A stretch of 25,962 bases of DNA, from the IMG/VR virus record IMGVR_UViG_3300047562_004335, positions 1-25,962 of that record. One strand, 5' to 3'. Below, one piece after another: positions 8,124-24,570 of this stretch. The notes below the pieces were generated by a model, which did not search any database, was not told where the DNA came from, and worked only from the letters and a program-made list of their open reading frames with translations. Numbering within the stretch: position 1 is the first letter of the stretch; each line of letters opens with the position of its first letter. A program made the position numbers and the translations under genes. This DNA comes from a virus.

Positions 8124-8942
8124 ATGTCAGTAAAAATATCAGAACTTTCAGCATCGGTAGACATAACATCGGATGATTTTTTTCCTATTGTTGATAGTGG
8201 AAGCCTGACAACCAAAAGAGCAAATGCACAGCAGATGCTTGATTATATTACAGGTTCAACTTTTGATACTCTTACTGTAACCAGTCTTGACGGAACAACA
8301 GCACAATTCACAACAATAACTGGTTCAACCGTAACTGGAACAACAGCACAATTCACAACAATAACTGGTTCAACCGTAACTGGAACAACAGCACAATTCA
8401 CAACATTTAGCGCAAGCAATTTAGCTGTTTCTGGTGGAAGCGCAGTGTTCTATGAATCCGCAATTATTGATGATTATGCGTATATTCTTTACAATTCAAG
8501 TATTGATAAATTAGCAATATTCCCAGGTTTATATATAACAGGTGCTCTAACTGCTTCAACTGTTGTCAGTGCTCCAACTGGTGCTTTTGATAACATAACA
8601 GGCCCTACTGGTAATATGATTGTTTCTGGTTCTTTATCGGGAATGATTGCGGCACTAACTTCTTCTGCTTCAAATTACACATTTGTTCCAGCAGATAGCG
8701 GAAAAGTGGTTGTATTGAGTTCCTCTTCCGATATTACTGCTTCTGTACCGACTGGTCTTCCGATTGGATTTACTACAACCATAGTTCAAAATGGCTCTGG
8801 TTCAATATTTGTCAGCGCCAGTTCTGGTGTTGCAATAAGAAACAGGCAAAATCATACCAAAACTGCAGGTCTTTATGCTGTTGCAACGCTTATAGGAACT
8901 GGCAGTAATTCTTATATATTCGCAGGTGATACGACCACATGA
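8124..8942 (+). CDS. Tail-fibre-like protein with 15-residue tandem repeats (272 aa)
   Basis: TGAGGA at 8111-8116 precedes the ATG. The N-terminus (KISELSASVDITSDDFFPIV...) is the short 'KISELP..D.FPVVD' attachment module that I know from many phage fibres. Residues ~57-94 are a tandem repeat of GTTAQFTTITGSTVT, encoded by a perfect 45-bp DNA repeat. It probably forms a trimeric beta-fibre shaft. The C-terminal ~90 residues (ADSGKVVVLSSSSDITASVP, later RNRQNHTKTAGLYAVATLIG) are a beta-sandwich tip domain commonly found at the end of fibre and appendage proteins. The ATG of the next gene overlaps the stop. Role: host-contacting fibre or fibre segment. Confidence 0.82.
   Translation: MSVKISELSASVDITSDDFFPIVDSGSLTTKRANAQQMLDYITGSTFDTLTVTSLDGTTAQFTTITGSTVTGTTAQFTTITGSTVTGTTAQFTTFSASNLAVSGGSAVFYESAIIDDYAYILYNSSIDKLAIFPGLYITGALTASTVVSAPTGAFDNITGPTGNMIVSGSLSGMIAALTSSASNYTFVPADSGKVVVLSSSSDITASVPTGLPIGFTTTIVQNGSGSIFVSASSGVAIRNRQNHTKTAGLYAVATLIGTGSNSYIFAGDTTT
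8292..8405 (+). repeat. Perfect 45-bp tandem repeat inside a fibre gene
   Basis: Two identical 45-base units (8292-8336 and 8337-8381) are followed by 24 identical bases of a third (8382-8405). Each unit encodes 15 residues beginning GTTAQFTT. The lack of any synonymous change implies recent expansion or ongoing homogenisation. In-frame gain or loss of units would alter fibre length without breaking the gene. Confidence 0.95.
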
Positions 8943-15061: not shown

Positions 15062-15204
15062 AAAAAGTATATGTTGTAACAGAAACTTGGTATTCAAACA
15101 AAACCGTAGTTGCGGTCTTTGAGAAAAAAGAAGATGCTTTAGACTTTGTAGTAAAGCAAAATAAGCCAACAAACTTTCTAATAAATGAAATGGAAGTGAA
15201 ATGA
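15058..15204 (+). CDS. Small unknown protein between primase and Mre11-Rad50 fusion (48 aa)
   Basis: ATG overlaps the primase stop (ATGA), and its TGA overlaps the next ATG (ATGA). CAGGG (15047-15051) lies 6 bases upstream, a good binding site. The product starts MKKVYVVTETWYSNKTVVAV and continues with a short helix rich in Lys/Glu/Asp and a final strand. This beta-hairpin/helix plan is common among tiny phage and bacterial proteins that begin MK.VYVVT and have a 'vFe..edA' helix. I cannot assign a function. The perfect coupling on both sides is the main evidence that it is real. Confidence 0.75.
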   Translation: MKKVYVVTETWYSNKTVVAVFEKKEDALDFVVKQNKPTNFLINEMEVK

Positions 15205-18200
15205 TAAAACTGATACATTTAGCAGACACACATATCCGTAACCTAAAATATCACGAAGAATATCGCGAGATATTCAATAAAATGTTTTCTATTATCCGCG
15301 AAGAAAAGCCAGACCACATTGTCCATTGCGGAGATATAGCGCACACAAAAAATCAAATATCACCAGAGTTTGTTGAAATGTGTTCTTGGTTTCTAAAAGA
15401 ACTTGCAGACATCGCTCCAACATATGTTATTCTTGGAAACCACGACTGTAACCTCAAAAATGATACTCGCCAAGATAGTATTTCTCCTATCGTTACAGCA
15501 CTAAATCATCCAAACCTCAAACTTTGGAAATATTCAGGCGAGAGAGTTGTTGATGAAAAACTTGCTTTCAATGTTCTTTCACTTATTGATGAAGACAAGT
15601 GGGTAAAGCCAAGCGATCCAAGTAAGATCAACATTGCTCTTTATCACGGTGCTATTGCTGGTGTATCCACAGATGTAGGATATACCATGGAACATTCAGA
15701 TCACGATGTTGCCATTTTTGAAGGGCACGACTATGCTTTTCTTGGTGATATTCATAAAACAAATCAAATAGTGGACACAGTTGGTCGCGTAAGATATCCC
15801 GGCAGCACTGTTCAGCAGAACCATGGCGAAACTGACGACAAGGGTTTTCTCATTTGGGAAATAGAAGATCAAGACAAGTTTGATGTTCGCCATGTTGTTA
15901 TTCCTCATCCAAAGCCATTTGTAACAATAAAACTTGATGAAAGTGGCAAGTTTGATGAAACAGCAAACATAAAAGCAAATGCACGCATTCGTGTTATGGC
16001 TGAAAGCAATATTGCAGCAAATGAAATAAGAAAAACACTTGATATTATCAAGGTAAAGTTTCAGCCAGAAAGCGTTACTTTTCTCAATAAGGCAACTGAC
16101 AGGATAGATATTTCAGAAACCATTAGCAAAATGGAAGATGAAGATCTGCGCTCAATAGAGACACAAGAAAAACTTCTTGCTGAATATCTAAAAGACTACA
16201 ACCCAACACAAGAAATACTACAAAAAGTATATGAACTAAATAAAAAATATAACTCTCTCGCAGAAGAAAACGAAGAGGTAAGTAGAAACATTCGTTGGTC
16301 TATCAAGTCTCTAAAATGGAACAATATGTTCAACTATGGCAGCGGTAATAGCATAGACTTTCAAAAACTAAATGGAGTCGTTGGAATATTTGGTAAGAAC
16401 TATTGTGGCAAAAGTTCTATTGTTGACAGTATGCTTTGGGGCATTCAAAACTCAACAAGCAAAAATGTTCGCAAGAATGTAAATATCATCAATCAAAACA
16501 AAGACAACTGCTCTGTTGTAACAGAGTTGCTTGTTGATGGAAAACAATACAGTATTGAAAGAACCGCTGAAAAATATACCAAAAAACTAAATGGAGAAGA
16601 AACACTTGAAGCCAAAACAGATGTTTCTTTCAGTGTTTGTGATATTGGAGAAACCGAAGACTGCGACAAGTATGAAAAAGGAAATCTAAATGGTCTTGAC
16701 CGTAATGAAACAGATAAAAATATTCGTAAAATATTTGGAACATTGGAAGACTTTCTTTTTACTTCTATGTCTTCGCAACTTGGCTCACTTGACTTTATCA
16801 ACGAGGGTTCAACTCGTCGCAAAGAAATACTTGGAAAGTTTCTTGATCTTGATATTTTTGCGAAAAAACACAAACTTTCTAACAATGAAGCAACAGAGCT
16901 AAAAGCTGCCCTAAAAAGACTTGAGGCAAAAAACCACGATCAAGAAATACTGGAAGCTTCTATAAAATTGGTAGAACTAAAAAGCAAAGCAGACCAACAA
17001 GTCGCAGAATGCGAAGAGATAAAAAGCGAGATAAAAGAACTAACTGAAAGTATAAACAATATAAATATAGAAATAGCATCTATGCCAAAAATAGATGTTG
17101 TAGATATAGATACAGCCAAGGCTTCGCTGTCTAAAATATATGCGGACATAGAAAAACTTGGAAAAACCATGAAGGAAAATAGCGACTTTTTTACAGAAAA
17201 GCAAATAGCGCTTGATAGTGCCAAAAAAGTTGTTGCTGATATAAACATAGAAGAAATAAATAAAAATAAAAATATAATAACAGAAAAAAATAAAGAACTT
17301 GAAAAGACATTGAGGCAAATAAATGACCTTGAAAAAGATATTATCCGCGACAAAAAAGATATACAGATCCTGGATGAAGTCCCATGTGGAGATAGTTTTC
17401 CTACTTGTAAGTTTCTCACCAATGCCTTTCAAAAGAAAAACGAAATGGCTGATAAAAAAGATCTTGTGGTTATAGCAAACAAAAGAAAAGAAGAAATACA
17501 AAAGATTATAGCCGAGCTAAACCCGGAAGAAATAGAAAAGTCTATCTCTATTCGCAATGTTATATTAGATAAAATAAGAAACATGGAAAATGTTATTGCC
17601 AACAAGAAACTTGAAAATGAACAACTAAATGGGAAAATAATAGTTTCCCAGAGCCTTATAGAAAAACTGGAACAAAAAATAGAAAACTATTATAAAAATG
17701 AAGAAGTCGCACTAAAACTAAATGATCTAAATAAAACAAAAGAAAGTTTTGTTGAGAAAAACGATAAACTAACAAAACAACTAAACATTTGTGAAACCAG
17801 CATAATAAAACTACATCGCGAACAGGGTTCGCTTGAACAAAAGAAAACTGATTTAGAAGAAGCAAAAGAAGAACTTGCTAAACTACGAGAAGAATACTCT
17901 GCCATTTCTATGTTTGAAAGAGCAATGCACAGCAACGGAATAAGTTATGATATTATTCGTAAAAAACTACCAGTTATAAACGAAGAAATAGCAAAAGTCC
18001 TTGCCAATATTGTAAGTTTTGAAATATTTTTTGAAGATGATGGCAAGAAACTTGACATTCTTATCAAGCATCCAAAATACGAAAAGCGACCAATAGAGTT
18101 GGCAAGTGGGGCAGAAAAGAGTTTGGCAGCAATGGCTATAAGACTTGCCTTGACAAAAATAACTTCTCTACCAGTTGGCGACATAATGATACTTGACGAA

Positions 18201-18377
18201 CCAGCAACCTCGCTTGATGAAGAAAATATGGAAGGCTTTACAAGAATACTTGATATGCTGAAAACCCACTATAAGACAATATTGTTGATTTCTCACCTCC
18301 CAGAACTAAAAGATATTGCAGATACGCAGATACTTATAAATAACGACAATGGTTATGCACATGTGGAGGTAAAATGA
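15201..18377 (+). CDS. Fused Mre11/SbcD-like nuclease and Rad50/SbcC-like ATPase
   Basis: 1058 residues. Residues 1 to ~330 are a calcineurin-like phosphoesterase: DTH (Asp9, His11), CGDIAH (Asp45), GNHD (79-82), LYHGAI and LGDIHK. A helical joint follows (~300-365). The ATPase half has Walker A GKNYCGKSS (398-406), long coiled coils, a central hook CGDSFPTC (Cys729/Cys736), an ASGAEKS signature (968-974) and Walker B LDEPATS (Asp999, Glu1000). In T4 these are separate genes, gp47 and gp46, which resect DNA ends for recombination-dependent replication. Here one polypeptide gives fixed 1:1 stoichiometry. The hook is C-x6-C instead of the usual C-x2-C of Rad50. No frameshift or stop divides the two halves. 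Confidence 0.93.
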   Translation: MIKLIHLADTHIRNLKYHEEYREIFNKMFSIIREEKPDHIVHCGDIAHTKNQISPEFVEMCSWFLKELADIAPTYVILGNHDCNLKNDTRQDSISPIVTALNHPNLKLWKYSGERVVDEKLAFNVLSLIDEDKWVKPSDPSKINIALYHGAIAGVSTDVGYTMEHSDHDVAIFEGHDYAFLGDIHKTNQIVDTVGRVRYPGSTVQQNHGETDDKGFLIWEIEDQDKFDVRHVVIPHPKPFVTIKLDESGKFDETANIKANARIRVMAESNIAANEIRKTLDIIKVKFQPESVTFLNKATDRIDISETISKMEDEDLRSIETQEKLLAEYLKDYNPTQEILQKVYELNKKYNSLAEENEEVSRNIRWSIKSLKWNNMFNYGSGNSIDFQKLNGVVGIFGKNYCGKSSIVDSMLWGIQNSTSKNVRKNVNIINQNKDNCSVVTELLVDGKQYSIERTAEKYTKKLNGEETLEAKTDVSFSVCDIGETEDCDKYEKGNLNGLDRNETDKNIRKIFGTLEDFLFTSMSSQLGSLDFINEGSTRRKEILGKFLDLDIFAKKHKLSNNEATELKAALKRLEAKNHDQEILEASIKLVELKSKADQQVAECEEIKSEIKELTESINNINIEIASMPKIDVVDIDTAKASLSKIYADIEKLGKTMKENSDFFTEKQIALDSAKKVVADINIEEINKNKNIITEKNKELEKTLRQINDLEKDIIRDKKDIQILDEVPCGDSFPTCKFLTNAFQKKNEMADKKDLVVIANKRKEEIQKIIAELNPEEIEKSISIRNVILDKIRNMENVIANKKLENEQLNGKIIVSQSLIEKLEQKIENYYKNEEVALKLNDLNKTKESFVEKNDKLTKQLNICETSIIKLHREQGSLEQKKTDLEEAKEELAKLREEYSAISMFERAMHSNGISYDIIRKKLPVINEEIAKVLANIVSFEIFFEDDGKKLDILIKHPKYEKRPIELASGAEKSLAAMAIRLALTKITSLPVGDIMILDEPATSLDEENMEGFTRILDMLKTHYKTILLISHLPELKDIADTQILINNDNGYAHVEVK

Positions 18378-18601
18378 TAATGGCCAGACTAAAAAAAGAA
18401 ATACTTGATAGAGGCATATCAAAGCTTGTTAGTAGAAAACTACTTGTTTGGATTGTGGCCACTGTGGGCGTTCCACTACAGCTTATTGATGGAGAACAAT
18501 GGCTACAAATAAGCATGGTTTATATTGGTTCACAAGCGGCGAAAGATTTTATCATAGAATATGTCAAAGCAAAAGCAGGCCAAAATACACCACCTGTATA
18601 G
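18374..18601 (+). CDS. Holin-like small membrane protein (75 aa)
   Basis: The start overlaps the preceding TGA (ATGA), with GGAGG at 18365-18369. The N-terminus is MIMARLKK: two Met codons two codons apart, 4 and 10 bases from the binding site. A basic region with SRK is followed by LLVWIVATVGVPLQLI (first hydrophobic segment) and WLQISMVYIGSQAAKDFII (second, amphipathic), then a charged tail. The SRK-hydrophobic-YxGxQ plan resembles small class II-type holins, which open the inner membrane at lysis. Its position just before spanin-like genes supports this. No endolysin gene lies in the window. A non-lysis membrane protein remains possible. Confidence 0.6.
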   Translation: MIMARLKKEILDRGISKLVSRKLLVWIVATVGVPLQLIDGEQWLQISMVYIGSQAAKDFIIEYVKAKAGQNTPPV

Positions 18602-18602
18602 T

Positions 18603-18698
18603 GTGCTAAAAAACGGACTGGTCATGGCCATTATATTGATGGCTGTGATCGGTCTTATTTTAGAAATAATGAGAAATAGGGAAATAAATGTTAGATAA
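18603..18698 (+). CDS. Possible 31-residue single-span membrane peptide
   Basis: An open frame begins at GTG 18603 (31 residues) or, with a GGA 6 bases before it, at ATG 18624 (24 residues). The core is MAIILMAVIGLILEIM, a perfect transmembrane helix, followed by the basic tail RNREINVR. It overlaps the start of the next gene by 11 bases. Composition and position in the lysis block suggest a pinholin- or antiholin-like regulator. Short length, a GTG or weak-SD start and lack of comparison keep confidence low. Confidence 0.4.
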   Translation: MLKNGLVMAIILMAVIGLILEIMRNREINVR

Positions 18699-19056
18699 AA
18701 TATTAAAAACAATAAAAAAATATTGGTATATGTTTGCCATATTAGCACTAACTATTTTTGTTTTATTTGTAAGTTTTGCCGAAAATGCAAAAGTGGCAGG
18801 ACTAACTAATATGATAAAAAAAGTTACTGATGGATATAAAAAGCAGTTTGATAAAATTGAAGAACTAAATGATAAAAAAACTGAAAAAGATAAAAAAACT
18901 ATTACCGAAGCAGAAAAAAATGCGGAAGAAATAGAGGCTAAAAAACAACAAGAAATACAAAAAGCCCTGGAAGATAAACAAAAATCAATAGATGAGCTAA
19001 AAAAGAAAACAGCACAAGAACTTGCTGATAAGATGAAAGACGAGTTCAAACTATGA
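18688..19056 (+). CDS. N-anchored coiled-coil protein, inner-membrane spanin-like (122 aa)
   Basis: AGGGA (18678-18682) lies 5 bases before the ATG. A short basic N-terminus (LDKILKTIKKYW) precedes one transmembrane helix (~14-31, MFAILALTIFVLFVSF). From residue ~45 to the end runs a highly charged Lys/Glu coiled coil with many QQEIQKALEDKQK-type heptads. This is the architecture of Rz-type i-spanins, which sit in the inner membrane and reach across the periplasm to an outer-membrane partner. The next gene overlaps its stop (ATGA) and encodes an exported coiled-coil protein. An i-spanin role is inferred from topology; length and sequence are not diagnostic. Confidence 0.6.
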   Translation: MLDKILKTIKKYWYMFAILALTIFVLFVSFAENAKVAGLTNMIKKVTDGYKKQFDKIEELNDKKTEKDKKTITEAEKNAEEIEAKKQQEIQKALEDKQKSIDELKKKTAQELADKMKDEFKL

Positions 19057-19481
19057 AGGCATTATGTATAATATTATCATTTATTTTTTCAGCCAACTCT
19101 TTGGCTCAAACAGCGGTCGTCAAAGGACAACCATCTCCCGAAGACGGCATCTTTCTAACAAAGGAAGAAGCTGCAAAAATACTGGCAGACAAGGCACTAA
19201 CAGAAAAAATATGTAAAATAGAAAAAGAAGCAGCCATTGAGGTAGAAAAAAATAAATGTTCACTTGATAATGGTTTGCTAAAAAACGAACTTGAACTGGA
19301 AAAGAAAAAGTTTGACGAAATAAACAGGCTGAGAAATGAACAGGACAAAGTTTTCTTGGACCGTATTGATGATGGCGGCGATAATACATATTATTTTTTT
19401 GGTGGACTCGCTGCCGGCGCGATAATAACTGGCGCTGCCATAGTGGGCACAATAGTTTTAGTGAAACAGGTTCAGCAATGA
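19053..19481 (+). CDS. Exported coiled-coil protein with C-terminal membrane anchor (142 aa)
   Basis: The N-terminus MKALCIILSFIFSANSLAQ is a Sec signal peptide with a likely signal peptidase I site after SLA. There is no Cys at a lipobox position. The mature part begins TAVVKGQPSPEDGIFLTKEE, a 'KG.P.P..G.L.t.eeA' opening I associate with phage proteins near lysis genes. It then forms a Lys/Glu coiled coil with Cys64 and Cys75. Residues ~112-138 (FFGGLAAGAIITGAAIVGTI) make a C-terminal membrane helix. The protein should be mostly periplasmic, anchored at its end. It resembles neither a lipoprotein o-spanin nor a classic u-spanin. A lysis or envelope-disruption role is inferred. Confidence 0.6.
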   Translation: MKALCIILSFIFSANSLAQTAVVKGQPSPEDGIFLTKEEAAKILADKALTEKICKIEKEAAIEVEKNKCSLDNGLLKNELELEKKKFDEINRLRNEQDKVFLDRIDDGGDNTYYFFGGLAAGAIITGAAIVGTIVLVKQVQQ

Positions 19482-19870
19482 CAACTGATTGGGATAAAAT
19501 AGCCGCAGTAGAAAGAGCCGTAAAAGAAAAATACGGAGAAAATGCTATTGCTAATCCAAAGGCAAACTGGAGCGAAGAAAAAGAAAAAAACTACATAGAA
19601 CAAGTAAAAGAACAAGCAGAAATAGTTAGACAAAAAGCAGAAAAACAAGAAATAGTTGAGGAAAATGGGTTTTTAGTAAAGAAAAAACTATTTACTACCA
19701 AACCCAACAGGGTTTGTCCAGTCTTGGAATGTAAGCGTTATTCTTTTAGTATAAAAGATGATGTGTATATGAACAAGTTTGGATGTTGTTATGAATGTTA
19801 TATAAAACACATTGAAGGTCGCGAAGACCTTTGGGAAGAAAGAAAGAAGGTGATTACAAATGGTAGTTGA
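19478..19870 (+). CDS. Small Cys-rich, zinc-ribbon-like protein (130 aa)
   Basis: ATG overlaps the preceding TGA. The first half is a charged helix (residues ~30-60). The second half contains Cys80-x4-Cys85 (CPVLEC) and, after KDDVYMNKFG, Cys103-Cys104-x2-Cys107 (CCYEC), followed by YIKHIEGRE. This spacing suggests a single zinc-binding knuckle. I have an impression of similar small proteins in marine T4-like phages but cannot name the family. It lies between lysis genes and the histone-like gene. Possible roles are DNA or RNA binding, or a small regulator of the late genes; none is shown. Confidence 0.65.
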   Translation: MTTDWDKIAAVERAVKEKYGENAIANPKANWSEEKEKNYIEQVKEQAEIVRQKAEKQEIVEENGFLVKKKLFTTKPNRVCPVLECKRYSFSIKDDVYMNKFGCCYECYIKHIEGREDLWEERKKVITNGS

Positions 19871-20054
19871 TAAACTTGAAGAAGTAGCGAAAGCACTTGA
19901 AGCATGTAAAGCAGACGCAGTAAAAGTTGACAAAGGTAATCGTTCGGCAGCAACCCGTCTTCGTAAAGATCTCGGCGCAGTCGCAAAGATGCTAAAAGAA
20001 CTTCGTAATGCAGCGCTTGAAAAAGTTCGTGAAGTAAAATCAAAAGAAGACTGA
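19860..20054 (+). CDS. Histone H1/Hc1-like DNA-binding protein (64 aa)
   Basis: It overlaps the previous gene by 11 bases, with AAGG about 9 bases upstream of the ATG. The product is two amphipathic helices around KGNRSAATRLRKDLGAV (residues 25-41), then LKELRNAALEKVREVK. That pattern (K-G-N-[KR]-x-A-x-T-R-x-R-K, then aliphatic/basic helix) matches my memory of the helical domain of Hc1/bacterial H1-like proteins of Chlamydiae, Bacteroidetes and others. The Lys/Ala/Pro-rich tail of cellular versions is missing. Net charge is only mildly basic (calculable from the sequence). Expected role: binding or bridging DNA, perhaps to compact phage DNA before packaging; its place between lysis and packaging genes fits late expression. 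Confidence 0.7.
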   Translation: MVVDKLEEVAKALEACKADAVKVDKGNRSAATRLRKDLGAVAKMLKELRNAALEKVREVKSKED

Positions 20055-20077: not shown

Positions 20078-20608
20078 ATGGCTGAACTATTAGATGTAAT
20101 AAAGGGTATTTCACAAGTAATGGCTCAAACCTATGATGGTGCAACCGATAAAGACGGTAAGCCAATGAAAGCAGGTCTACGCCGAGAAGAAGTATCAGCA
20201 TTTACCAGTTGTGAGTGTCGTCTCCTTGATGGTTTTCGTGCGCGTGTAACTCATCACGCAGCAAAAGATGGTTCTTTTCCATGTTTGATAGTCTCTTATC
20301 ACAGCGAACTCAAACTTGAAGAAGCGCACAGTCCAAAACTTGGCGAACAAGTTGAAGAACATATAGCAGAAGCGCTAAAATATCTAAAAAAAGAGTTCAA
20401 AAAAGTTGCTGGCAAAGAACTGAATGTTGAAAAATATGGCGAAGTAAAAATGCTTGTTGAAGAAACATCAAGAATCCGAGTTTTTGTAACAGCACAATGT
20501 CATTACAAAATAAAAGATGTTGATATGCCAAAACTTGAAGATCAAAAAGATGTTGAACGCAGCGAACAACTTCAAAAATGGTTGGCATTGGGTGGGCTAA
20601 AGAAATGA
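20078..20608 (+). CDS. Unknown conserved-type phage protein (176 aa)
   Basis: AAGGAGAAG precedes the ATG, the strongest binding site in this part of the operon and the only real gap (23 bases) in the coupled run, so it may be made in larger amounts. The sequence is alpha/beta: a short N-terminal helix, a segment GKPMKAGLRREEVSAF, a strand pair around CLIVSYHSELKLEE, a long helix and a strand near SRIRVFVTAQCHYKI. No enzyme motif, signal or membrane helix is seen. I associate similar proteins with marine phage packaging neighbourhoods but cannot name a family. Being next to the terminase, a packaging or neck role is possible. Confidence 0.65.
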   Translation: MAELLDVIKGISQVMAQTYDGATDKDGKPMKAGLRREEVSAFTSCECRLLDGFRARVTHHAAKDGSFPCLIVSYHSELKLEEAHSPKLGEQVEEHIAEALKYLKKEFKKVAGKELNVEKYGEVKMLVEETSRIRVFVTAQCHYKIKDVDMPKLEDQKDVERSEQLQKWLALGGLKK

Positions 20609-20880
20609 AAATAACAAAAGCAAGACTTTTACAGATCATTCGTGAAGAGGTAGAACTCCACGAAAAGTATGTTGAAGAAAATTTTATTGAACTTGACGAA
20701 GAAACTCTTGAAGAACTTTCAAAAGAAGCCGGTATAAAAGCTATTGAAGGCGAAATAGACACCGATGAAGAAGCTGGAAACCTTGAACAAGATAGTGGTG
20801 TTGATGAAGACCGACTTTTTGATCCCAAAACAGGAAAACCAGTAAAACCAGACGATGGCACAAACCAAGATGATATATGA
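20605..20880 (+). CDS. Small acidic phage protein upstream of terminase (91 aa)
   Basis: I choose ATG 20605, which overlaps the preceding TGA. The reading frame continues upstream to 20578, but that extension overlaps the previous gene more and lacks a better site. The N-terminus MKITKARLLQIIREEVELHE is a basic-then-acidic helix, a beginning very common among small phage proteins. The rest is strongly acidic and Asp/Glu-rich, probably disordered, ending DDGTNQDDI. Position and size would suit a small terminase subunit or accessory factor, but no DNA-binding helix-turn-helix is visible. Its TGA overlaps the terminase ATG. Confidence 0.6.
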   Translation: MKITKARLLQIIREEVELHEKYVEENFIELDEETLEELSKEAGIKAIEGEIDTDEEAGNLEQDSGVDEDRLFDPKTGKPVKPDDGTNQDDI

Positions 20881-22475
20881 GCTATGTTCTTACAAAAGAT
20901 CAGGTAAAGGAAGAGATAAAGAAGTGCGGGCGTGATCCTGTATACTTCATTACAAACTATTGTAAAATATCACATCCAGAAAAAGGCTTGATACCATTTA
21001 GTTTATATGGCTATCAGCAAAAAACAATAAAAGATTTTGAAGACTATCGCTTCAATATAGTTCTAAAAGCCCGCCAGTTAGGTTTATCAACCGCTGTTGC
21101 GGGTTATATTGCTTGGATGCTTCTTTATCGCAGACAAAAAAGTGTTCTTGTTGTCGCAACAAAACTTGATGTAGCGGCCAACCTTGTAAAAAAAGTAAAA
21201 AAAATGATAAAAAGTCTGCCAAGTTGGATGAATATAGCAGACATATCAATAGACAATAGAAATAGTTTTGAGCTAAACAATGGTTCGTGGATCAAAGCAT
21301 CATCAACAAGCGAAAGTGCTGGCCGTTCAGAAGCATTGAGTCTTCTTGTTATTGACGAAGCGGCATTCGTTGAAGGCATGGAAGACCTATGGAAAAGTAT
21401 ATTCCCAACACTTTCAACCGGTGGTCGCTGTATTGCTATCAGCACACCAAATGGTGTTGGAAACTGGTTCCATGAAACATATATAAATGCTGAAAATAAC
21501 ACAAACGATTTCCACGCTATAAAACTAAACTGGGATGCTCATCCAGAACGAGATCGCGACTGGTTTGAAGCAGCCACTCGCAATATGAATAGGCGAGATA
21601 TAGCGCAAGAATATGAATGCTCTTTCAATGCATCTGGTGAAGGAGTCATAAACTCGCAAGATTTACAAGAAATAAGAGAAGGCGTTTTAGAACCCAAATA
21701 TCGCACAGGTTTTGACAGAAATTATTGGATATGGGAAGAGGCAAGAGTTGATTTCACATATCTTCTTGTAGCAGACGTCGCCCGAGGCGACGGAAAAGAT
21801 TTTTCTGCTTTCCATGTTGTAAAACTTGAAACAATGGAACAAGTAGCGGAATATCAAGGAAAAATAGCCCCCGATATTTATGCTGACATGTTGTTTCAAA
21901 CAGGAAAAGAATACAATAATGCTCTTCTTGTTGTTGAAAATAATAACATTGGATATAATGTTCTTGATAAACTTATAGAAAGAAAATATCCAAATATTTA
22001 TTTCTCAATAAAATCAACACACGAATACATAGAGCAAGTTCAAGCAGAAAGTATGACAAACAGTGTTCCAGGGTTTACAACAACTCAAAAAACACGACCT
22101 CTTATCGTCGCAAAACTTGAAGAGTTTATTAGAAACAAGTTGATAAAAATATATTCTAATAGAACAGTAGAAGAACTATCTACATTTATATGGAATAATG
22201 GACGACCAGAGGCAATGAAAAACAGAAACGACGATCTAACAATGTCTCTTGCTATTGCTTGCTGGGTGAGAGATACTGCCCTAACAGTTTCTCAACGAGA
22301 TGTTGAGTATACAAAAGCTATGTTTAATGCTATAACTGTGGCGAATACCAGAGTTCAAACTAAAATACCCGGACAAGTAGGTTATAATAGCAACTATTCA
22401 ATGGATGAAAAAAGGGTAAACCAAAAAGAACTAAAAGAGTTCTATAAAATGTATGACTGGCTTTATAAAGGATAA
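20877..22475 (+). CDS. Terminase large subunit (T4 gp17-like)
   Basis: 532 residues. ATPase half: adenine-contacting Gln47 (LYGYQQ), Walker A ARQLGLST (65-72), Walker B LLVIDEAAF (156-164, Asp160/Glu161) and coupling motif ISTPNG (188-193). Nuclease half: Asp300 in VADVARGDGKD, Glu354 in VVENNN and Asp452/Asp453 in RNDDLTM, the RNase H-like metal site. Known role: a pentameric motor docks on the portal, cuts concatemeric DNA and pumps it into the head using ATP. The Walker A form RQLGxST is the usual deviant of the T4 group. No intein or split is present. ATG overlaps the stop of the acidic protein upstream. A clear small subunit is not evident in the window; one may be absent, distant or be one of the small neighbours. 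Confidence 0.95.
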   Translation: MSYVLTKDQVKEEIKKCGRDPVYFITNYCKISHPEKGLIPFSLYGYQQKTIKDFEDYRFNIVLKARQLGLSTAVAGYIAWMLLYRRQKSVLVVATKLDVAANLVKKVKKMIKSLPSWMNIADISIDNRNSFELNNGSWIKASSTSESAGRSEALSLLVIDEAAFVEGMEDLWKSIFPTLSTGGRCIAISTPNGVGNWFHETYINAENNTNDFHAIKLNWDAHPERDRDWFEAATRNMNRRDIAQEYECSFNASGEGVINSQDLQEIREGVLEPKYRTGFDRNYWIWEEARVDFTYLLVADVARGDGKDFSAFHVVKLETMEQVAEYQGKIAPDIYADMLFQTGKEYNNALLVVENNNIGYNVLDKLIERKYPNIYFSIKSTHEYIEQVQAESMTNSVPGFTTTQKTRPLIVAKLEEFIRNKLIKIYSNRTVEELSTFIWNNGRPEAMKNRNDDLTMSLAIACWVRDTALTVSQRDVEYTKAMFNAITVANTRVQTKIPGQVGYNSNYSMDEKRVNQKELKEFYKMYDWLYKG

Positions 22476-22479
22476 ATAA

Positions 22480-24570
22480 ATGGCTGACAATAGTAGACCA
22501 ATAAACAGAAGCGATCTTCGCAATATACCTACCTCAAAAAGAGGCAGAGTAAATCAGGAAAAAAGTCCATATAACCCAGATAATAGTCTTTTCAAAAGAC
22601 TTACAAAACTATTTTCTGGTCCTATTGTCAATCGTCGCCAACAAAACTATAAAGGCGAACGTCGTCGGCGTTTAGATAAATATCGCTTTCAATCAGCGCA
22701 AGGCCAACAGTTCAAAAAATCTTCTTACAACCCATTTGATTATGTTCATTCACAAAGCATGGCAAATCAAAACCGTGCCGAAAGATATGTCGACTTTGAA
22801 CAAATGGAATATTCACCAGAACTTGCTTCTGCATTAGACATATATGCTGATGAAATGACCACAAGCAACTCGCTTGAAAAAGTTCTCACAATAGATTGTC
22901 CTAATGAAGAAATAAAAACTATCTTACACACTCTTTATTACGATGTTTTGAATATTGAGTTCAACCTTTTTGGTTGGTCAAGAAATATGTGTAAGTTTGG
23001 AGACTTTTTCTTATATCTTGATATTGATGAACGCGATGGTGTTAGAAATGCAATAGGTCTGCCACCATATGAAGTTGAACGCATTGAAGGCGAAGATGAA
23101 AAAAATCCCAACTATGTCCAGTTTCAATGGAATAGTGGTGGAATGACTTTTGAAAACTGGCAGTTAGGACACTTCCGTATTCTTGGTAATGACAAATATG
23201 CGCCATATGGAACAAGTGTATTAGAGCCAGCCCGTCGTATTTGGCGACAACTAACCCTGCTTGAAGATGCCATGATGGCTTATCGTATTGTTCGCTCTGC
23301 CGAGCGTCGTGTATTCTATGTTGATGTAGGAAATGTTGCTCCTAATGATGTAGAGCAGTTCATGCAAAAAGCAATGACTGCGCTAAAAAGAAATCAAGTT
23401 GTTGATGAAAAAACCGGTCGTGTAGATCTTCGCTATAATCCACTTTCAATTGAAGAAGATTATTTTATTCCAGTTCGTGGCCAACAATCAACAAAGATAG
23501 AAAGTCTTTCTGGCGGTCAATATACTGGCGACATAGAAGATGTAAAATATCTACGAGATAAACTATTCTCTGCTATAAAAATACCACAGTCTTATCTTGC
23601 TCGTGGCGAAGGCGGCGATGAAGATAAAACAACATTAGCTCAAAAAGATATTCGTTTTGCGAGAACCATTCAAAGACTACAAAGATCAGTTATAAGCGAA
23701 CTTGAAAAAATAGGTGTTATACATCTTTTCGTTCTGGGATACAGAAGCGAAGATCTTATCAAGTTCAAGCTAAAACTAAATAACCCAAGTAAGATAGCAG
23801 AACTACAAGAGCTTGAAACTTGGAAAACAAAGTTTGAAGTTGCCAGTGCTGCAACCGAAGGATATTTCTCCAAGCGTTGGGTTGCTAAAAAAATATTTGG
23901 TCTTTCCGACGAAGAGTTCCTGCGAAATCAGCGTGAAATGTTCTTCGACTTCAAGTTCAAGGCTGCGGTTGAGAAAGCAGGAACAGAACAAGAATCTGCT
24001 GCCGGTGATGCAGATGCATTTGGTGCGGCTGCTACCAGTGGTGGAGCAGGTGTCTCTGGTCAAGATGCTACTTCCGGTTTAGATTTGAGCACTCTTACAG
24101 CGGAACCGGAAGGTGCAGCAACACCAGAAACACCAACACCAGAAACACCCGCTGGTGGAGAAGAAGAAGTTGGACCGTTAATAGCAGCGCCAGGTAAAAG
24201 AGATGATAAACTAACAACTACTCCTGCTTCAAGAGGCAAAATGTATATGCCTGTAAAATATCGTGGAGGAGATAGCAGACCAACAGGGGCAAGAACAAGA
24301 AGCTATCAATCAAAGTTCAGCAAAGAGTTGGGCGGCGGTTCTAATAGAAATATTTGGGGAAGCGGAACGCAAGATTTATTTGGTCTTGGTAATGGCATTT
24401 ACGAACAATATGAAAATAGTTATAGTGAAGAGATAGTAGAAGAGATAAATAAAAAACAAGACAACGATATTATAGAACAAAAAATATTATCTAATAACGA
24501 TAGCTTGAAACAACTAATAAGTTCTTTGGAGAAGAAAAATGCAACAAACAAAGAAAATAGCGAAGACTAA
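22480..24570 (+). CDS. Portal protein (T4 gp20-like) with long C-terminal extension
   Basis: 696 residues, AAAGGA just before the ATG, 4 bases after terminase. The gp20-like core is seen in YSPELASALDIYADEMTTSN (~109-128), then a MCKFGDFFLYLDIDE strand region, YAPYGTSVLEPARRIWRQL (~240-258), SIEEDYFIPVRG and IKIPQSYL (~366-373). Known role: a dodecameric ring at one capsid vertex through which DNA enters and leaves. After residue ~505 comes an Ala/Gly/Thr/Pro-rich low-complexity stretch (about 508-567), followed by a basic segment (KMYMPVKYRGGDSRPTGART) and a Glu/Lys-rich end. T4 gp20 is ~520 residues, so this tail is extra. Its last codons overlap the next gene by 32 bases. Confidence 0.92.
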   Translation: MADNSRPINRSDLRNIPTSKRGRVNQEKSPYNPDNSLFKRLTKLFSGPIVNRRQQNYKGERRRRLDKYRFQSAQGQQFKKSSYNPFDYVHSQSMANQNRAERYVDFEQMEYSPELASALDIYADEMTTSNSLEKVLTIDCPNEEIKTILHTLYYDVLNIEFNLFGWSRNMCKFGDFFLYLDIDERDGVRNAIGLPPYEVERIEGEDEKNPNYVQFQWNSGGMTFENWQLGHFRILGNDKYAPYGTSVLEPARRIWRQLTLLEDAMMAYRIVRSAERRVFYVDVGNVAPNDVEQFMQKAMTALKRNQVVDEKTGRVDLRYNPLSIEEDYFIPVRGQQSTKIESLSGGQYTGDIEDVKYLRDKLFSAIKIPQSYLARGEGGDEDKTTLAQKDIRFARTIQRLQRSVISELEKIGVIHLFVLGYRSEDLIKFKLKLNNPSKIAELQELETWKTKFEVASAATEGYFSKRWVAKKIFGLSDEEFLRNQREMFFDFKFKAAVEKAGTEQESAAGDADAFGAAATSGGAGVSGQDATSGLDLSTLTAEPEGAATPETPTPETPAGGEEEVGPLIAAPGKRDDKLTTTPASRGKMYMPVKYRGGDSRPTGARTRSYQSKFSKELGGGSNRNIWGSGTQDLFGLGNGIYEQYENSYSEEIVEEINKKQDNDIIEQKILSNNDSLKQLISSLEKKNATNKENSED

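Follow-up and report, generated by a model that had tools for sequence, protein, structure and literature searches.

The window, by which we mean the whole stretch of 25,962 nucleotides analysed here, is from an uncultivated T4-like phage. The nearest annotated phages by the large subunit of terminase (TerL) and the portal protein are Microcystis phage Mel-JY01 and Flavobacterium phages (immuto), with 41-44% identity. An open frame on the + strand (positions 19860-20054) begins with ATG and encodes a protein of 64 amino acid residues with the Hc1 domain (PF07432). It lies between recombination/lysis-like genes and packaging genes, all on one strand. On the upstream side are a primase-like gene and a conserved fused gp47/gp46-like (SbcD/SbcC) nuclease gene (15201-18377, +; Metallophos and AAA_23), followed by three small proteins (18374-19481) that may form a lysis cassette: they contain membrane segments or begin with a signal-like sequence, and one of them matches Rz-spanin weakly. 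The next gene, p130 (19478-19870, +; 130 residues), showed no family match and is kept in relatives in the same arrangement with 73-91% identity; its C-terminal half is Cys-rich (CPVLEC...CCYEC), possibly a zinc site. The end of p130 overlaps the start of the Hc1 gene by 11 nucleotides, likewise in the relatives, suggesting translational coupling of the two genes. On the downstream side are p176 (20078-20608, +), a conserved neighbour by synteny without an assigned family, of which the fold matches were insignificant, several being to tail-terminator/neck proteins; p100 (20578-20880, +), a variable small frame without a family match directly before TerL, in the small-terminase position; TerL of T4 type (20877-22475, +; PF03237, 52.6 bits; phrog_2, 183 bits); and the portal of T4 gp20 type (22480-24570, +; PF07230, 261 bits). 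Elsewhere in the window, the frame at 8124-8942 encodes a unit of about 15 residues repeated in tandem (TTITGSTVTGTTAQF).

The preliminary description had assigned the 64-residue product to Hc1/H1-like proteins from a motif. In the Pfam search it matched PF07432 with 43 bits (E = 4.1e-11), well above the gathering cut-off of 23.5 bits, and the match spans residues 4-55 of 64 and profile positions 2-54 of 57. Neither nine composition shuffles nor the reversed sequence of the protein gave an Hc1 match at E<=10. The motif KGNRSAATRLRK corresponds to residues 25-36 and contains the signature KGN..A.TR.RK (alignment A3); the DNA pattern of the motif occurs once in the window and in none of 100 shuffles. 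In an alignment of diverse viral and bacterial relatives, PF07432 was matched by 22/22 members, while searches of PHROGs and NCBIfam with the protein gave no usable match. These results show that the frame belongs to the Hc1-domain family, as had been proposed.

The structure of the protein was predicted by AlphaFold2 with a 10-sequence alignment, and the model (mean pLDDT 90.5) consists of two helices (residues 2-24 and 28-63) without strands, consistent with the helical hairpin expected earlier. Fold searches with this hairpin against PDB and a viral library returned generic helical hairpins only; in the viral library the Foldseek match of rank 2 carries the name Histone H1 (E = 0.046), which is not significant alone. 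Since a two-helix hairpin is very common and the matches in PDB were all unrelated, the fold gives no functional clue. The protein ends nine residues past the Hc1 domain and has no basic tail, with a net charge of only about +3.5 and a pI of 9.4. The charge is unevenly placed. The tip of the hairpin (residues 22-36, KVDKGNRSAATRLRK; 19923-19967, +), comprising the turn and the start of helix 2, carries about +5 and the remainder is negative. Among the viral matches listed (84 distinct proteins), the mean charge is +4.85 in the tip (12 residues) and -1.83 in the rest, and the values for 29 Bacteroidota proteins are +4.62 and -1.07. The tip is also the most conserved stretch of the family (alignments A1 and A3), and in the window clade, which was collected by whole-protein search, alignment A1 shows no variation over residues 19-33. 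Note that the conservation of the tip is partly built in for the viral and Bacteroidota sets, because the motif had served to select or filter these sets; this does not apply to the acidic remainder. A basic tip on a slightly acidic body would fit contact with nucleic acid.

Searches of viral contigs recovered 19 contigs of the same clade, in which the Hc1 proteins have 66-100% identity; one of them (L001) shows no difference from the window and could come from the same virus. Wherever the contigs reach, the gene order is SbcCD-p75-p122-p142-p130-Hc1-p176-p100-TerL-portal-p288-p188, and the placement of Hc1 ahead of p176-p100-TerL-portal is kept in all 19, about 0.8 kb upstream of TerL, or more where inserts occur. 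The pairwise pN/pS was about 0.20 over 163 homologue pairs, indicating purifying selection, and this value together with the synteny shows that the frame is a real gene. A tree built from 113 sequences, each of about 56 residues, gave good support to the window clade (0.99) but did not resolve its place among the viral and bacterial groups (0.65 and 0.52), so that it points to no particular source of the gene. Some relatives have in-frame inteins in the portal gene, one at L008:3272-4747 (Intein_splicing, 58.5 bits, with HNH) and one at L002:8821-10320, recognized by the same CLHGDTKIA junction, and TerL of L006 (7033-8961) gave weak matches to the Hint domain; the portal and TerL of the window do not have these inserts.

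Relatives outside the clade are numerous. The stringent DNA pattern of the motif gave at least 120 matches in the viral collection, and the 84 distinct viral proteins among the matches listed, including that of the window, have a median length of 62 residues and are almost all tailless. Of 198 Bacteroidota genomes sampled, 117 carry PF07432, mostly in one copy, and of 14 control genomes only the Bacteroides does; 29 distinct Bacteroidota proteins, the best-scoring ones rather than a random draw, have a median length of 58 residues. The absence of the basic tail from the window protein, pointed out in the preliminary description, is thus correct but is no peculiarity, because most of the viral relatives listed and of the Bacteroidota relatives are also tailless. 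Of the 29, one Hymenobacter protein has a Lys/Ala/Pro-rich tail of about 40 residues. The genome of Hymenobacter polaris (L151, L148) holds a pair of Hc1 genes, for such a tailed protein and for a tailless one with the AATR motif variant, as in the window clade. Flavobacterium phage immuto encodes a divergent Hc1-like protein of 58 residues without the KGN turn (L149:1426-1662), directly after a phage GroEL gene, which scored 21 bits in a genome scan, below the PF07432 cut-off.

The start of the Hc1 gene overlaps p130 and the gene precedes p176, p100, TerL and portal, so its product is most probably synthesised together with those of the late/packaging genes. Against this timing, recombination and primase genes, as found here upstream of Hc1, are early in T4. 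A T4-like late promoter TATAAATA at 18335-18342, well placed before p75, was considered and rejected as evidence of late expression: the window has five copies of TATAAATA against 2.7 expected, and the copy at this site is missing in most relatives. No conserved late promoter was found in the window and its relatives. Late expression, as in the 'late operon' described earlier, is likely from the gene order only.

As the best explanation, we consider the product to be a small architectural protein in contact with DNA (or RNA), that is, a tailless nucleoid-type form of Hc1, with a probability of roughly 0.5. The hairpin would dimerise, by analogy with this domain in chlamydial Hc1, and the dimer would bring two basic tips together, would make weak, non-sequence-specific contact with nucleic acid, and could thereby bridge or bend phage and/or host DNA during infection. 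Against this stand the net charge of only +3.5, the commonness of the two-helix hairpin and the absence of a DNA-binding tail of the type described for chlamydial Hc1 (PMC2848022). Homology alone would predict dimerisation and not compaction of DNA, because only the N-terminal part is kept and the tail to which the same source assigns DNA binding is gone. The preliminary description suggested that the protein could compact concatemers, cover host DNA or be packaged; none of these follows from the homology, and a role in the handling of DNA is plausible, though unproven. Our literature search found nothing on DNA binding, dimerisation or presence in the virion for a tailless Hc1 protein.

The main rival to contact with nucleic acid is that the domain is a protein-protein module without direct binding to DNA, which would dimerise with itself or with the host Hc1 and act as a decoy or competitor, or as a scaffold for another phage protein. 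We regard this as possible but clearly less probable. It would draw on the role of this domain as the dimerisation part of chlamydial Hc1, according to PMC2848022, on the wide occurrence of PF07432 genes in Bacteroidota noted above, and on the Flavobacterium phages being among the closest by TerL and portal; however, the strongest conservation is in the basic tip, no hydrophobic interface is evident, the other nearest phage infects Microcystis, and the window phage is not known to infect Bacteroidota. A rather improbable alternative is an RNA-directed role, in which binding of RNA by the basic tip would adjust translation at a late stage of infection. According to PMC2848022, chlamydial Hc1 and Hc2 act on RNA and translation in addition to DNA, but nothing here points to RNA specifically, and the lysine-rich region to which that account assigns DNA binding is absent.

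The fixed position of the gene close to TerL in the clade contigs could also indicate a clade-specific packaging accessory, such as a small-terminase-like protein or a cofactor of the portal or terminase. This neighbourhood, emphasized in the preliminary description, does hold in the window, where the T4-type TerL and the portal are nearby, but it is not general: in six other phage records with a locatable TerL of this family, Hc1 is about 150, 203, 33, 56, 53 and 41 kb from TerL (as the records are linear as stored, circular maps could shorten some of these distances). Accordingly, the packaging neighbourhood is specific to the window clade. In cyanophage S-SRM01 the gene annotated as 'histone H1' is beside porin and DNA starvation protein genes, and the divergent copy of immuto is beside GroEL; moreover, a separate frame, p100, stands directly before TerL, and the Hc1-type protein matched no small-terminase (TerS) family in Pfam, PHROGs or NCBIfam, although TerS proteins are divergent. 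A small-terminase role was considered and found no support in these searches, and the wider accessory role is hardly likely. The shortness of the frame might still suggest a chance reading frame or a decayed host gene without function, which is extremely improbable: the purifying selection and the kept synteny, across contigs with 68-100% protein identity, already refute it, and the Pfam score well above the cut-off likewise speaks against it.

Returning to the tailless architectural protein, a more specific version is that this clade recruited a host-type Hc1 beside its packaging genes to organise replicated DNA for the terminase, possibly mixing with host Hc1, and that the protein may enter the virion; we consider this version unlikely. 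Phage Hc1 genes had been called little studied; PF07432 proteins of phages have already been noted in a publication (PMC12619734) and in the record of a cultured cyanophage. The window gene adds a new and divergent member to the already described Hc1 genes of phages and Bacteroidota, and its clade, with a fixed gene order, would be well suited to the study of a kind of gene that is itself not new. The tailless form occurs in the majority of the Bacteroidota genomes sampled and in numerous environmental phages, and our search of the literature found no biochemistry for these proteins. Whether the bare domain binds DNA, once settled, would define what 'histone H1-like' annotations mean in phages and Bacteroidota.

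The window protein has nothing in common with the eukaryotic linker histone H1 beyond the name and the broad notion of a basic protein of chromatin. The globular domain of linker histone H1 is a winged helix, whereas the window protein is predicted to be a two-helix hairpin, and it gave no Pfam match to the linker-histone family at E<=1. With chlamydial Hc1 (HctA) the window protein has the N-terminal domain family in common; according to PMC2848022, which cites earlier domain mapping (J Bacteriol 1996), the N-terminal part of HctA dimerises and a lysine-rich C-terminal domain, which the window protein does not have, binds DNA. The H1-like proteins of phages are closer in kind, being of PF07432 type and from large tailed phages, like the window gene. 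They include those of moraphages, reported in 2025 in four complete genomes with a speculated role in genome compaction (PMC12619734), and those of S-SRM01 and many IMG/VR contigs. The likeness to the moraphage proteins is by published description, the identity to viral relatives outside the clade is only about 27-40%, and in the measurable records these relatives do not adjoin the terminase, whereas the gene of the window clade is near TerL. The tailless Hc1 proteins of Bacteroidota (about 58 residues) share with the window protein the PF07432 match over the full length, the length class and the KGN..A.TR.RK tip, with about 26-43% identity. Their genes are chromosomal and the window gene is phage-borne, and their tip is usually KF..KGN..AGTR, whereas that of the window clade is KV.KGNRSAATR, one residue shorter before KGN.
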